Assembly (NCBI RefSeq): GCF_000242255.2
Contig: NC_017033.1
Location: 2,243,110 to 2,307,109, forward strand
DNA from: Frateuria aurantia DSM 6220
Lineage (GTDB): Bacteria > Pseudomonadota > Gammaproteobacteria > Xanthomonadales > Rhodanobacteraceae
Direction: 5' to 3'
Length of the DNA: 64,000 bases
In this document: in pieces, positions 40,207-46,514 of the stretch
Position numbering within the stretch: the first letter of the stretch is position 1
Layout: every line of letters starts with the position of its first letter
Position numbers and translations under genes: made by a program
The notes under the pieces: generated by a model
Told to the model about the DNA's origin: nothing
Databases searched by the model: none
Seen by the model: the letters and a program-made list of their open reading frames with translations, nothing else

Positions 40207-41592
40207 TCAGCCGCCCATCGGCGGGAAGCCGCCACCCATGCCGCCCATGCCCTTCATGGCGCCGCGCATCTGCCGCAGCAAGCCCTTGCTGCCGCCCTTG
40301 GACAGCTTGCTCATCATCTTTTCCATCTGCATGTACTGCTTCAGCAGACGATTCACGTCGGCCGGCAAGGTCCCGGAGCCGCGTGCGACACGGGCACGAC
40401 GCGAGCCGTTCAGCAGATCGGGATGGCGGCGCTCCTTCTTGGTCATCGAACCGATGATGGCCACCATCTTGTGGATTTCCTTGTCATTGACCTTGGACTT
40501 GACGTTGTCCGGCAGGCTGGCCATGCCAGGCAGCTTGTCCATCAGTCCGGCCAGGCCACCCATCTGGGTCATCTGCTGCAGCTGGTCACGCATGTCGTTC
40601 AGGTCAAAGCGCTTGCCCTTGATGACCTTCTCGGCCAGCTTCTGGGCCTTCTCGTGATCGACCTTGCGCTCGACTTCCTCGACCAGCGACAGCACATCGC
40701 CCATGCCCAGAATCCGCTGGGCGACACGATCGGGGTGGAACGGCTCCAGCGCATCGGTCTTCTCGCCGGCACCCAGAAACTTGATCGGCCGGCCGGTGAT
40801 ATAGCGCACCGACAAGGCGGCACCGCCACGGGCATCGCCATCCGTCTTGGTCAGCACCACGCCGGTCAGCGACAGCGCATCGGAAAATGCCTTGGCGGTG
40901 GTGGCGGCATCCTGGCCGGTCATCGAATCGACCACGAACAGGGTTTCCACCGGATTGATCGCGGCATGAATGGCCTTGATCTCGGCCATCATCGCCTCGT
41001 CGACATGCAGACGGCCGGCCGTATCGACCAGCAGCACATCGGCGACTTCGCGCCTGGCGGCCTGAACGGCGGCCTTGGCAATCTCGACCGGATCCTGTCC
41101 CGCCTCGGAGGGGAAGAAGCTCACCTTCACCTGTTCGGCCAAGGTCTGCAGCTGGGCAATTGCGGCCGGGCGATACACGTCGCAGCTGACCACCATCACC
41201 TTCTTGTGCTTGCGCTCGGTCAGGAAGCGGGCCAGTTTGGCCACCGTGGTGGTCTTGCCCGCACCCTGCAGGCCGGCCATCAACACCACGACCGGCGGCG
41301 CGGCGGCCAGATTCAGCTCGGTATTGGCCGTACCCATCACCGCCGTCAGCTCGTCGCTGACCACCTTGACCAGGGCCTGGCCCGGGCTGAGGCTCTTGAT
41401 CACATCCTGGCCCACGGCCCGGACCTTGACCCGCTGGATCAGGGCCTGCACCACCGGCAGAGCCACATCGGCCTCCAGCAGGGCGATCCGTACTTCGCGC
41501 AGGCTTTCGCGGATATTTTCTTCGGTCAGGCGGCCGCGGCCGCGCAGGCGGTCAACAGTGGCGGACAGGCGCTGGCTCAATGATTCAAACAT
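40207..41592 (-). CDS. ffh: Signal recognition particle protein Ffh (SRP54)
   Basis: A 461-residue GTPase that binds 4.5S RNA and signal sequences for co-translational targeting. N domain FESLSQRLSATVDRLRGRGRLTEENI; G domain P-loop LMAGLQGAGKTTTVAKLA; DTAGRLHVDEAMM; TKTDGDARGGAALS; and the Met/Gly-rich M domain at the C-terminus (MRGAMKGMGGMGGGFPPMGG). It is complete. In E. coli and relatives ffh sits directly upstream of rpsP and divergent from ypjD; here both intervals contain inserted genes. Confidence 0.98.
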   Translation of the reverse strand: MFESLSQRLSATVDRLRGRGRLTEENIRESLREVRIALLEADVALPVVQALIQRVKVRAVGQDVIKSLSPGQALVKVVSDELTAVMGTANTELNLAAAPPVVVLMAGLQGAGKTTTVAKLARFLTERKHKKVMVVSCDVYRPAAIAQLQTLAEQVKVSFFPSEAGQDPVEIAKAAVQAARREVADVLLVDTAGRLHVDEAMMAEIKAIHAAINPVETLFVVDSMTGQDAATTAKAFSDALSLTGVVLTKTDGDARGGAALSVRYITGRPIKFLGAGEKTDALEPFHPDRVAQRILGMGDVLSLVEEVERKVDHEKAQKLAEKVIKGKRFDLNDMRDQLQQMTQMGGLAGLMDKLPGMASLPDNVKSKVNDKEIHKMVAIIGSMTKKERRHPDLLNGSRRARVARGSGTLPADVNRLLKQYMQMEKMMSKLSKGGSKGLLRQMRGAMKGMGGMGGGFPPMGG

Positions 41593-42188
41593 AGCGGATC
41601 GGGTTCATCGTACGGGAAACTCCAAGTATATCAGTCGCCAGCGTTTCGCGTGTTCTCGCTCGCCGCCGGAACAGGCCCCGGCGGATGGGCCATGTACGAT
41701 GTACGTGATCAGCCGGAGAGGGCCTGGCCGTTGCCGGAAGTTGATGAACACGATACGGACCAGGACGGAATCTCCAGTGCCGTCGTTCCCTTGGGCCGCA
41801 GCAGGATCGCCTTTGCCATCAACCCGTATCAGGGCCGGCCGCCAGTCGACAGCTTGCGACGGCCATGCCGGCGGGGCCGCATATCCCTTGCTTTCGCGCA
41901 AGCACCACGACGGAGGCTTTGGCCGTTCGCGTCAACCGTGGGCCCGGCAACAGACGCTCAATCATGCGCTGATCACATGAAGATCACGCGCCTTGGCCCT
42001 CAGGTCAAACAGGCTCGGTCCTGCCTGCCCGGCAGCGTCGAAGGCCCCGCAATCCATCCGATACGGGATAGCCATACTCCGTGATCGTCGCCCCAAGCCA
42101 GGCCGCTGCCATCCATCATTACTGGCGCACATCCACGATGTCCTGGCCGGCTGATGCACGCCTGAAACCTCTTGCCTGCGGTGCACCG
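41593..42188. other. Intergenic region upstream of the CPBP gene
   Basis: About 600 bp between divergent ffh and the CPBP gene. No frame shows convincing protein character. The ffh promoter and the CPBP promoter must be here. I saw no repeat or terminator of note. Confidence 0.4.
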
Positions 42189-43070
42189 ATGCAAAATCCG
42201 CTTTCGCCCCAACGCAACAGGCCCGGGATTGCCACGACGATAGCCCGGGCTTTCGCCGCCTCCGGGAAAAGCCTGGGCCTGTCCGCCAGATACGCGGCAT
42301 CGCGTCACTATCTGATGTTTCTGGGCTTGATCGTGGCCGCCAACTGGCTGCTCGATCGCGTCTTTGATCATTTCCATTTCAATGACCGGAGCGGCTTTGT
42401 CGGCAGCTTTTTTACCATTGCCTGCGGGGCCATGTATTTCCGTCCCGGATGCAAGCCGGCAAGACCGCTGACATGCCTGGTCCAGCTAACCCTGGCGGCC
42501 CTGCTGGCCAATCTGATCGACTACGCCTCCATCTATGCCGTCTACATGATCAAGCTCTACCACATCAAGATGACGCTTGCCCCGCAGGTACTGCAATTGC
42601 TCCCCGCCACCCGGGATATCACCTATGCCGCCTTGTCCGAAGCCATGGGCGGAGGGCCGATCCGCTTCCTGATCATGGCCTGCCTTTCCGCGCCCTTGTG
42701 GGAGGAATTGATCCGAGGCCTGGTCTACAAGGCCGCCCAGCCCTGGATGGCACCCGGCATGGCCTTCGGCCTGGCGCTGCTGCCGTCGCTTCTGACCCAT
42801 GTCCGGCTCCCCTGCTTCACCATCGGCTTTCATATGGCCATGGGATATCTGCTGATGTGGAATTACTCCTGGCTTGAAAGAGCCGTCATCCACTCCCTGT
42901 GCAATCTCCTCAGCATCGCGAATCTGCTCTGGCTTGGTCTGCTTGCCGTCGATGTCGATTTCCATCTGAGTCTGCCCCGTTTCTTATCCGCCGTGGCCGT
43001 TCTGGTACTCAGCTGCATCGCACTTGCCCGCCTGGCTAGGCGCAAACCCTTCCGGAGGATCATGATTTGA
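42189..43070 (+). CDS. CPBP-family intramembrane protease (Abi/Rce1-like)
   Basis: About 293 residues with several membrane helices. The three CPBP motifs are present in order: EExxxR as PLWEELIRGLVYKA, FxxxH-like segment in LLTHVRLPCFTIGFHMAMGYLLMW, and HxxxN as HSLCNLLSI. Bacterial CPBP proteins are putative glutamic-type intramembrane proteases, often linked to bacteriocin self-immunity or peptide maturation. The frame opens at 42081 (GTG) with other ATGs at 42138 and 42189; no start has a strong ribosome site. A small Gly-rich cistron follows 24 bp downstream with its own AGGAG, suggesting a functional pair. Confidence 0.78.
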   Translation: MQNPLSPQRNRPGIATTIARAFAASGKSLGLSARYAASRHYLMFLGLIVAANWLLDRVFDHFHFNDRSGFVGSFFTIACGAMYFRPGCKPARPLTCLVQLTLAALLANLIDYASIYAVYMIKLYHIKMTLAPQVLQLLPATRDITYAALSEAMGGGPIRFLIMACLSAPLWEELIRGLVYKAAQPWMAPGMAFGLALLPSLLTHVRLPCFTIGFHMAMGYLLMWNYSWLERAVIHSLCNLLSIANLLWLGLLAVDVDFHLSLPRFLSAVAVLVLSCIALARLARRKPFRRIMI

Positions 43071-43093
43071 ACGGCCAAACAGGAGCCATCACC

Positions 43094-43584
43094 ATGGAAA
43101 ACCAAGATACCACCGCCGCGGGAACCACCGTACTGCAAGCGGATGGCGGAGCAAGCATTCGCATCGAGAATGATGAGAGAGTGATATCCGCAAGATCAGC
43201 GCCCCCGAATCCAGCTCTGTCATATCAAGTGTAGGCCCCATCCACTACGAAGGACCCGCCAAAGACTTTGCCGCCGGCTGGGAAGGCCTGCAAACATCCA
43301 TCAAGGCCTTGGGCATCCATCTCTTGCAAGGACTGGAGCTGGTTATCGCCGGCATAGCCTGCGCCATTGATATCGGTACGATCTGCTCTCAAGCCAGCGA
43401 TACAGTGGATTTCACCATGTCATTGAGCGCCGTCAGAAAAGCCAAAGCCAGCGCGGAACAGCCGCCCCCGCCCAACCCTCCCGTCGAGATACCCGCTGGT
43501 GGCGGTGGCCATGGCGGCGGCGGCACTGTCGTTGTCGGGCCCTTGCAACCCGCAGGTCCACCGAGTCACGACAGGGATAAATGA
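43094..43584 (+). pseudogene. Small Gly-rich hydrophobic protein with a frameshift at GAGAGAG
   Basis: AGGAG is 8 nt before ATG 43094, which opens a frame (MENQDTTAAGTTVLQADGGASI...) that stops at 43234. From the GAGAGAG tract at 43175-43181 another frame continues SDIRKISAPESSSVISSVGP, then a hydrophobic helix (LELVIAGIACAIDIGTIC) and a Pro/Gly-rich tail (PPPPNPPVEIPAGGGGHGGGG) to 43584. Removing one AG unit (2 nt) joins both into a sensible protein of about 162 residues. No family recognised. It is either a broken gene, a phase-variable one, or two overlapping cistrons; the partner CPBP protease suggests a membrane-active or processed peptide. Confidence 0.55.
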
Positions 43585-44020
43585 CCGCAGACCCCTTCAA
43601 TCGGACAACGCCGCCATCACTGGCAGCCCGAGTCCCGACAGAACAGGCCCCGGCTATCGCCTCGCCTTGACGAGCAAGTCGTGTTAGGAGCTGAGGGGTA
43701 GCGAGTCCCGGCGCTGCCCGCCAGCCCTTGCTGCACGAGGATCCGGGGATCCGGATACCGCAACGTGCAGCGCGATCCGGCCCGATCGGCCGCATGCCGA
43801 CTGGAAACCCGGCAGTCCATACAAGCTCTTCCGCCACCAGCGTCCCGCGGTGGGCATTCCGCCACCCCGGGATCCGCGCTGACGGCGGTGGATACATGCT
43901 TTGGGCATATCGCCATCACCAAGACTTATGAGTACATACCTCGACGCGTGCTAGCTTGCCTGTTCGCAGGGGATGTCGGCACGCATCCCGATAAGGTATG
44001 GAACACGGGGGAAGTCATCT
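43585..44020. other. Intergenic region before the thioredoxin-TPR gene
   Basis: About 435 bp with no supported gene. An inverted pair CTGCACG / CGTGCAG brackets 43731-43771 and encloses GGATCCGGGGATCC, which could fold. Frames here on both strands are Arg/Ser/Pro-rich and lack ribosome sites. Confidence 0.35.
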
Positions 44021-45691
44021 ATGGGGTCTATCGAGAGCATGCATGTCTCAACATCTGCAGGCTCGCGGAGGGTCTGTCCCGCTCTTCGTCTATTGCCGGG
44101 CCTGAGCCTGCTCGGTCTGTGCCTGCAGCTGCCGGCACAAGATCTGCAGTTCAAGCAAAGCACGCATTCCGACAAACAGATCTTTGCCGCGGCACGCGGT
44201 ACGGAGGACGCCAGCGCCAAGGTTGCCGCACTGCAAAGCTTTGTCCGCGCTTATCCGCAAAGCCACTTGGTCGAGCGCGCGCAATGGGAAGTCTTCAGCA
44301 CGCTGGTCAAGCGCCTGCCGCAGCGGCTGCCGGCTATCCAGTCCCAGGCCAGGCTGCTGATCAGCCACGCCGATGCAGGCCTGGACAGCATCGAGACCCG
44401 CGCCGAGATCGCCGACAGCCTGGCCAACGCCGGCGTGGATCTGACTGACGCCGAGTCATGGGCCAGCTCGGCAGCCGCAAGCTTGACCGAAGCCCGGTGG
44501 CAGCAATGGCAGCGCGACCAGCATCAGGCGCCTGCCGACGCGGCGGCACAGGCAGAATCCGGCCGCCAGTTCCATGAATCCCGGGCCGAAGTCCTGGCTG
44601 CGCTGGCCAATGTGCAATGGCATCAGGGCAAGGTCCAGGCCACCGCAGCCACCTTGCGGGAAGCCGCCGCGCTGGACCCTGACTCGGACGAGGTCAATGC
44701 CTTGAGCGGCGAAGTCGCCTACGCCGCACATCAACCGGCCGTCGCGCTGGATGCCTATGAACGCGCCCAGCTTGCCGGCGAGCTGCAGCCCCTCCAGCAC
44801 GAGCACTTCCTTGCCGCCTATCGCGACACCCATGATGGCCGTCTTGACGGCCTGGAGCAGGCACTGGATGCGCGCTATGCGACCAGCTACCCCTTGCCTA
44901 TTCCCCGCCAGCCAGCACCCTCCGAAAAAGGCAACCGCACCGTACTGGTCGAATTGTATACCGGTGCCGGCTGCCCGCCTTGCACGGCCGCCGATCTGGC
45001 CCTGGAAGGCGTGCAGAACAATGCCCCCCGAAAGCAGGTCGTGGTGCTGGCCTTCGACCAGCATATTCCGCGGCCGGACCCGCTGGCCACCCCGCAAACC
45101 GTGGCGCGAGCCAAGTGGTACGGGATCCTCGGCACTCCGACCTTCTATGTCGACGGCCGCCAGGCCGATGTCGATGGCGGTGGTCGCAGCCATGCGCTGG
45201 CGACTTATCAGGCCTTGTCCAGGTCGATCCAGCAACAACTGAGCACGCCGGCCCCGCTCGCCCTCACAGCCCAGGCCACCCAGAATGCCGAGGGCAAGGT
45301 CCAGGTGCAGATCCGGCAAACCGCAAGCTCGCAAGACCAGCTGCTGCCACCGGCCGACCTGCACGTGGCCCTGGTCGAGGATCATGTGCGTTACAGCGGC
45401 CAGAACGGGATACGCTTCCACGAAGCCCTGGTCCGTGCATTGAGCCATGCCGACGGCACGGCCACCGCAAGCCGGGCCAGTTTCGATATCCCTGCCCTGG
45501 AACGGCAGCAGCGCACCTACCTGGATGCCTATGAGCAGCACAATGATCGCTATGGCCCGATCCAGTTCCTCAACAAGGACATCCCTCTGGATCCACGGCA
45601 TCTGGCTGTGGTCGTGTTCGCCCAGGACCCCGTGACCAAGATGGTGGCACAGGCCCGCTACATCCCCCTGACGCCGCCGGCAGGAACCTGA
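44021..45691 (+). CDS. Exported TPR-like / thioredoxin-fold protein
   Basis: About 556 residues. A hydrophobic stretch LLPGLSLLGLCLQLPAQ near residue 25 acts as signal peptide. The N-terminal ~270 residues are helical and Ala-rich with TPR-like pairing (VLAALANVQWHQGKVQATAATLREAAALDPDSDEVNALSG). A thioredoxin-like domain follows from ~290: TVLVELYTGAGCPPCTAADLAL (active site CPPC), and cis-Pro region GILGTPTFYVDGR. The C-terminal ~150 residues look like beta-rich unknown sequence. A periplasmic thiol-disulfide role is inferred. GGGGAAG is 7 nt before the ATG. A stand-alone nDsbD gene starts 4 bp after its stop. Confidence 0.72.
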   Translation: MGSIESMHVSTSAGSRRVCPALRLLPGLSLLGLCLQLPAQDLQFKQSTHSDKQIFAAARGTEDASAKVAALQSFVRAYPQSHLVERAQWEVFSTLVKRLPQRLPAIQSQARLLISHADAGLDSIETRAEIADSLANAGVDLTDAESWASSAAASLTEARWQQWQRDQHQAPADAAAQAESGRQFHESRAEVLAALANVQWHQGKVQATAATLREAAALDPDSDEVNALSGEVAYAAHQPAVALDAYERAQLAGELQPLQHEHFLAAYRDTHDGRLDGLEQALDARYATSYPLPIPRQPAPSEKGNRTVLVELYTGAGCPPCTAADLALEGVQNNAPRKQVVVLAFDQHIPRPDPLATPQTVARAKWYGILGTPTFYVDGRQADVDGGGRSHALATYQALSRSIQQQLSTPAPLALTAQATQNAEGKVQVQIRQTASSQDQLLPPADLHVALVEDHVRYSGQNGIRFHEALVRALSHADGTATASRASFDIPALERQQRTYLDAYEQHNDRYGPIQFLNKDIPLDPRHLAVVVFAQDPVTKMVAQARYIPLTPPAGT

Positions 45692-45695
45692 GCCC

Positions 45696-46187
45696 ATGCG
45701 CCCCCTCTTGCACGCCGCACTCTGCATCGGCTTCGCGACCAGCCCGACCCTGTTGCAAGCCAGCAGTACAGACCCCGAGCCGGTACGCTGGACCACCAGC
45801 CCGACCCAGGTCCCGGTCAGTGCCGGGCAGACCGTCAACGTCATCCTGCATGCCGATATTCAAGCCGGCTGGCATCTCTATGCCCTCAACGAACCCGATG
45901 GCGGACCCCATGCCACGGAAATCGGAGTAGCACAGGGCGATATACCCGACCTGCTCAGCGTCAGCGAGAATCCACCGGTCGAGCGCTATGACAGGGTCAT
46001 GGCCCGACGCCTGCGTTTTCATCTGGATCGTGCCGACTTCAAGCTGCAACTCAGCCTCCCCGCCGACAGTCCCACCGGTCCGCACACCGTGCACTTGCTG
46101 GCCCGTTTTCAGGCCTGCAGCGACAAGCTGTGTCTCCCCCCGCGAACCCGAAGCGTCACCACCGTGCTGACGGTCCAGGCCATCTGA
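45696..46187 (+). CDS. Stand-alone DsbD N-terminal (nDsbD-like) domain protein
   Basis: A 163-residue secreted protein: signal peptide LLHAALCIGFATSPTLLQAS, then an immunoglobulin-like domain matching the N-terminal domain of DsbD. Recognisable are VSAGQTVNVILHADIQAGWHLYALNE and the redox-active pair in RFQACSDKLCLPPRTR, equivalent to the Cys pair of nDsbD. In normal DsbD this domain is fused to an eight-helix membrane domain and a thioredoxin domain; neither follows. Located 4 bp after the thioredoxin-TPR gene, it probably exchanges electrons with that protein. The electron donor across the membrane is missing from the window. Confidence 0.8.
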   Translation: MRPLLHAALCIGFATSPTLLQASSTDPEPVRWTTSPTQVPVSAGQTVNVILHADIQAGWHLYALNEPDGGPHATEIGVAQGDIPDLLSVSENPPVERYDRVMARRLRFHLDRADFKLQLSLPADSPTGPHTVHLLARFQACSDKLCLPPRTRSVTTVLTVQAI

Positions 46188-46514
46188 AGGCGACTGAAAG
46201 CGAAAGCAGGCCACGGCGGCGGCTGCAGCAAGGCAAATGATACGGGGCAGGCAGAGCCGGCTCCCATCGCTTGCACGGCAAGCGGCCTCTTGCCTGCCTT
46301 CCGCCATCGGAGCCAGCGGCCAGCCGCCCCGTCTGGCGCCGCGGGCCAACACAGCAAACCAGATGGTTCAGCAGGCCGCGAGCACAATCCATGGCGAATA
46401 GCGGAGCTCGGCAGCACAGGCTTGCGCCATCAAGGGGGCCGTGCGAGCAGGCCTCCGCGTCGCAGCCCGGCCTGCGCCGTTCCCGGCCGTGTCCCGGTGT
46501 GCGAAACTCACGCC
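46188..46514. other. Intergenic region upstream of ypjD
   Basis: About 327 bp without a supported gene. Open frames exist on both strands but are compositionally non-coding. It should contain the ypjD promoter; no clear hexamers were recognised. Confidence 0.35.

Follow-up and report, generated by a model that had tools for sequence, protein, structure and literature searches.

A divergent CPBP/Rce1-like gene and an apparently frame-disrupted orphan small gene in probable accessory DNA between ffh and ccsA of Frateuria aurantia DSM 6220

Results

The interval between ffh and ccsA of F. aurantia DSM 6220 carries a gene for a divergent CPBP/Rce1-like protein followed closely by a small gene, and the reading we favor, at a probability of roughly 60%, is that both are accessory cargo and that the small gene is an orphan whose frame was disrupted by a shift at or close to a GAGAGAG tract. 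A first-pass annotation of this DNA had described a CPBP protease paired with a frameshifted small peptide; a CPBP-related gene and a nearby frameshifted small gene are indeed present, but adjacency is the sole link between them.

The window that we analysed is a 64-kb stretch of the 3,603,458-base genome, which forms one contig, and positions given without a contig name are those of the window. Here ffh starts at 41592 on the reverse strand and ccsA starts on the forward strand at what we took to be about 46500, leaving ~4.9 kb (41593-46499) that carries, besides the CPBP and small genes, one TPR/DUF1223 and one DsbD_N gene. The ffh locus was read in 7 of the 12 relatives having ffh, and the distance from ffh to ccsA is 93-379 bases in five of these seven and ~2.5 kb in two (G006 and G008). 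Because the gap is nearly empty in five of seven relatives and holds other cargo in G006 and G008, we judge from this comparison of gene order that the CPBP and small genes occupy accessory DNA, in a place where other cargo is inserted as well.

Several further observations concern the same interval. By Pfam, the G006 gap encodes an ArsR-family regulator, an SdpI-family protein and a hydrolase, and the frames in the G008 gap resemble those of G006 by eye. In the window, positions 43973-46187 encode a TPR/DUF1223 (thioredoxin-like) protein, for which a search of 30 relatives at E 1e-10 gave no match, and then a DsbD_N domain protein. A 20-base direct repeat (18 of 20 bases identical) lies on both sides of the CPBP and small genes, at 41663-41682 and 43635-43654; these are its only occurrences in the window at up to three mismatches, one of 100 shuffles gave two matches, and its 14-base core has exactly two copies genome-wide, both at this locus. 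The repeat may mark a border or may be due to chance. No promoter or terminator patterns were found in 41550-44050, and an Rfam match to gabT (E 0.45, below the gathering score) was taken as chance.

The CPBP/Rce1-like membrane protein gene runs from 42189 to 43070 on the forward strand (ATG at 42189, TGA at 43068-43070) and encodes 293 residues; its start is uncertain, an alternative GTG lying in frame at 42081. Its assignment comes from a PF02517 match and from its motifs. The Pfam match barely exceeds the cut-off (23.0 bits against 22.4, E 9.8e-5), and in a genome-wide search the gene scored 26.6 bits. The motifs of the CPBP family are given as EExxxR, FxxxH and HxxxN in the available text of three sources (PMC11980579, PMC9298176, PMC3578759). 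In the protein encoded here, the first motif reads E172-E173-L-I-R176 (EELIR), with two residues of spacing in place of three, the second reads S200-xxx-H204 (SLLTH), in which the F is absent, and the third, H235-xxx-N239 (HSLCN), conforms to HxxxN. The earlier description of these motifs as intact therefore holds for the EE, H and HxxxN residues but not for the arginine spacing, which is one residue short, nor for the missing F.

As controls we read the motifs of 32 PF02517 loci, namely L001, L002, L044 and 29 best-scoring loci. EExxxR is present in 31 of the 32, and among these 31 the second motif has F in 30 and W in one (L044); the set is biased to the standard motif, since 30 of its members (L001 and the 29 loci) were chosen as the best PF02517 matches. 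The remaining locus, L002, is without a recognisable motif set. It lies in the same genome as the window (G000:C1:979579-979785, reverse strand) and its PF02517 score of 34.4 bits is above the cut-off, while the motif scan returned no EE set. An AlphaFold2 model of the CPBP-like protein, built from an alignment of only three sequences, had a mean pLDDT of 40, and phmmer found no solved relative among PDB sequences. On present sequence evidence the protein is best called a PF02517-related variant and not a proven protease, and its catalytic power is uncertain because motif 1 is shortened.

The only clear relative of this protein is a second copy in the same genome, which matches it at G000:C1:2638124-2638841 on the reverse strand with 30% identity. 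The corresponding gene (G000:C1:2638079-2638892, reverse strand; L028 6080-6893) also carries a frameshift, close to a stretch of nine T, and its longer frame alone scores 22.2 bits against PF02517, just below the cut-off. Its first motif, EELVR, has the same short form, its second is LVIMH and its HxxxN is HAVSN. That both copies keep the short motif suggests a CPBP subfamily rather than a random defect, and the fact that copies sharing just 30% identity both retain E, E, H and HxxxN points to a continuing role for catalysis. The second copy has 41.7% G+C against 63% for the genome. Upstream of it lies a transposase gene (Pfam HTH_38 and rve), which we take to be of IS30 type, and on its 3' side we recognised no small gene; a short IS-like frame stands there, presumably resembling an IS3-type orfA.

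Beyond the two copies, no close CPBP relative was found in 61 near, 369 class, 233 family and 398 phylum genomes, sets that partly overlap and of which the last was searched with a two-copy profile. Searches of plasmids and phages found none, nor did pattern scans of GTDB contigs and IMG/VR, which reach close relatives only. The only hit to reach E 9.3e-6 apart from the two copies, obtained with the two-copy profile among the 398 phylum genomes (G716), was rejected as a short-motif relative, its motif being an ordinary EELVVR. PF02517 proteins in general are common, with at least one in 56 of the 61 near genomes. We thus found no conserved pairing of CPBP gene and small gene: the second copy is unpaired, and relatives elsewhere were not found.

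The small gene follows the CPBP gene in the same direction after 23 bases. The first-pass annotation had placed a small cistron with its own AGGAG 24 bp downstream; the cistron and its putative ribosome-binding site (43081-43085, forward strand, 8 bases before the ATG at 43094) are as described, and the spacing is corrected by one base. Two forward-strand frames make up the region. The upstream frame (43094-43234) has 46 codons and a TAG at 43232-43234, and the downstream frame (43177-43584, TAA at 43582-43584) encodes a hydrophobic helix and then a Pro/Gly-rich tail. The two overlap by ~57 bases, and TGATGA at 43171-43176 closes the downstream frame on its upstream side.

We scored these frames by log-odds codon usage, trained on 22 window genes. 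A single -1 switch scores highest at 43178, inside the GAGAGAG tract at 43175-43181, with 12.5 bits, the next best being 43184 with 10.6 bits; read straight through, the 46-codon frame gives -1.6 bits. Within that frame the first 28 codons score well and the other 18 badly, and the shifted frame is good from the switch onward. Since codon usage places a single switch at 43178, the best reading of the two frames is one small gene that now appears to be out of frame, and the join at GAGAGAG proposed earlier agrees with this placement. The length of ~162 residues given for the joined product follows from one of several possible changes, among which the sequence cannot tell. The predicted product has the single membrane helix and Pro/Gly-rich tail that the annotation had assigned to it, with a hydrophobic stretch whose best 19-residue mean is 1.88 and a tail of ~60 residues; a structure model of the downstream frame (mean pLDDT 63) contains one long helix.

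Two controls bear on how far the two-frame score may be taken. None of 2000 dinucleotide shuffles reached it (best -20.3), mostly because shuffles contain stop codons, and the antisense strands of real genes reached it in 72 of 130 stretches, so that the score indicates gene-like DNA and not by itself the strand. To assign the strand and to call this a gene, we therefore also rely on the ribosome-binding site and the flanks, 41620-42180 and 43590-43970, which are negative in all six frames.

Searches of 61 near genomes and 233 family genomes, among which the genus is represented by one genome, and of plasmids, phages, GTDB contigs and IMG/VR returned nothing above noise that is related to the small gene. 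Matches to the small frame in 43 of the 61 genomes (E up to 1) were rejected as noise; the best outside the own genome had E 0.002, several lay in frames with stops and many fell mainly on the Pro/Gly-rich tail. When the tail was removed, one of 233 family genomes matched, namely the own genome. Neither frame matched a family in Pfam, NCBIfam, PHROGs or PADLOC, and neither matched a precursor of a known peptide family.

Discussion

The simplest reading of the broken frame in this one strain is that the small gene is decaying, and the other accounts of the break differ in what they make of the tract. We think it unlikely that the 46-residue frame has nothing to do with the downstream one, or that neither is a gene: the lack of detectable homologues and the antisense control would fit this, but codon usage favors the upstream frame only up to the tract and the shifted frame right after it, and the negative flanks also speak against it. 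A 7-base dinucleotide repeat is not a typical 454 error, which argues against a sequencing or assembly error that would leave the gene intact in the living strain. Such an error would need to change only two bases, or one, in a short repeat, and 454 reads made up part of the data; however, the available account of the published assembly describes 537x Illumina coverage and polishing and puts errors at fewer than 1 in 100,000 (PMC3910546), so we regard an error as quite unlikely. The same account reports 99 pseudogenes for the genome (PMC3910546). Ribosomal frameshifting, by which both frames would be joined and the gene would be intact, has in its favor that the switch falls at the rare codon AGA and that the frames overlap by ~57 bases. 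The shift required is nonetheless -1 (or +2), and a -1 slip at AGA would need re-pairing with GAG. The canonical -1 slippery heptamer has the form X XXY YYZ, and there is none in 43170-43190. We consider frameshifting very unlikely. The first-pass annotation had also raised phase variation, which the tract speaks against: GAGAGAG comprises just 3.5 dinucleotide units and occurs once in the window against 7.5 times expected from dinucleotide shuffles, and, being rarer than chance, it does not belong to an overrepresented group of slippery tracts.

A more specific proposal is that the small gene encodes a bacteriocin-like or signal precursor which the CPBP protein processes or guards against, and that this gene is switched off by slippage in GAGAGAG. 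Consistent with this, the two genes are adjacent and co-directional, the small one has a good ribosome-binding site and its predicted product a membrane helix, and there is a precedent in Streptococcus anginosus, where, in the portion of the source available, bacteriocin activity depends on SilX, a CAAX protease of a bacteriocin region for which processing of the signal peptide SilCR has been proposed (PMC9298176). SilX likewise is a CPBP-type gene beside a small-peptide gene and likewise departs from EExxxR (EExxxQ); unlike the protein described here, it keeps the three-residue spacing and FxxxH and sits with bacteriocin and signal-peptide genes, whereas our small gene is an orphan with a broken frame (PMC9298176, as available). 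Against the proposal stand the failure to find relatives and any leader or bacteriocin family match, the second CPBP copy with no recognisable small gene after it, the short and unenriched tract, a motif 1 that is one residue short and a motif 2 without F, and the fact that no export gene was recognised among the neighbours tested with Pfam. We judge it unlikely, and a bacteriocin or peptide-maturation role for the pair is unsupported.

Comparison with other members of the family places the CPBP-like protein at some distance from its characterized relatives. Like the type II CAAX/CPBP glutamic intramembrane proteases (PF02517; MmRce1, MrtX/myxosortase), it is multi-spanning and has EE, H and HxxxN in order, but both copies here have EExxR for EExxxR and lack the F of FxxxH. 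The targets of JDVT-CTERM systems end in a C-terminal motif, a helix and a basic tail; in our small protein, by contrast, the helix is internal and is followed by ~60 Pro/Gly-rich residues, and no JDVT match was found in NCBIfam. Otherwise the arrangement of a CPBP gene adjoining one small gene is like that of MrtJ, which, in the text available, is a CPBP sorting enzyme adjoining a single target in beta- and gamma-proteobacteria (PMC11980579). Abx1 and SpdC, two histidine-kinase-binding Abi/CPBP proteins, are reported in the available text to act without need of the catalytic motifs or while lacking them (PMC3578759, PMC9298176); they too are membrane CPBP-family proteins, but no histidine kinase was recognised among the neighbours tested here.

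If the locus is accessory cargo, as we favor, the orphan gene would once have encoded a small protein with a single membrane helix and a tail rich in Pro and Gly, probably on one transcript with the CPBP gene. A frameshift in or near GAGAGAG would then have left a 46-residue product that lacks the helix, so that any joint function with the CPBP protein would be lost or fading, and we infer that the small gene is truly inactivated. The CPBP-like protein, for its part, may work chiefly through binding to a partner in the membrane, as is reported for Abx1 and SpdC, or may have a modified active site; had the two ever cooperated, the small protein would most plausibly have been an intramembrane binding partner or cleavage target of the CPBP protein. 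An alternative that we hold to be improbable is a new CPBP subfamily, marked by the short EExxR in two copies 30% identical, together with a dedicated small Pro/Gly-tailed membrane protein, both lying on accessory DNA inserted between ffh and ccsA, with the pair frameshifted off in the type strain.

As it stands, the locus appears to be a decaying accessory locus of one species. The roles of the CPBP family in prokaryotes are described as poorly defined in the available text of PMC11980579. Should the short motif be real and the protein active, the motif would put to the test how rigid the EExxxR arginine spacing has to be in glutamic intramembrane proteases, and if the small gene encodes a substrate, the two would add a gram-negative enzyme/substrate pair to the CPBP family.
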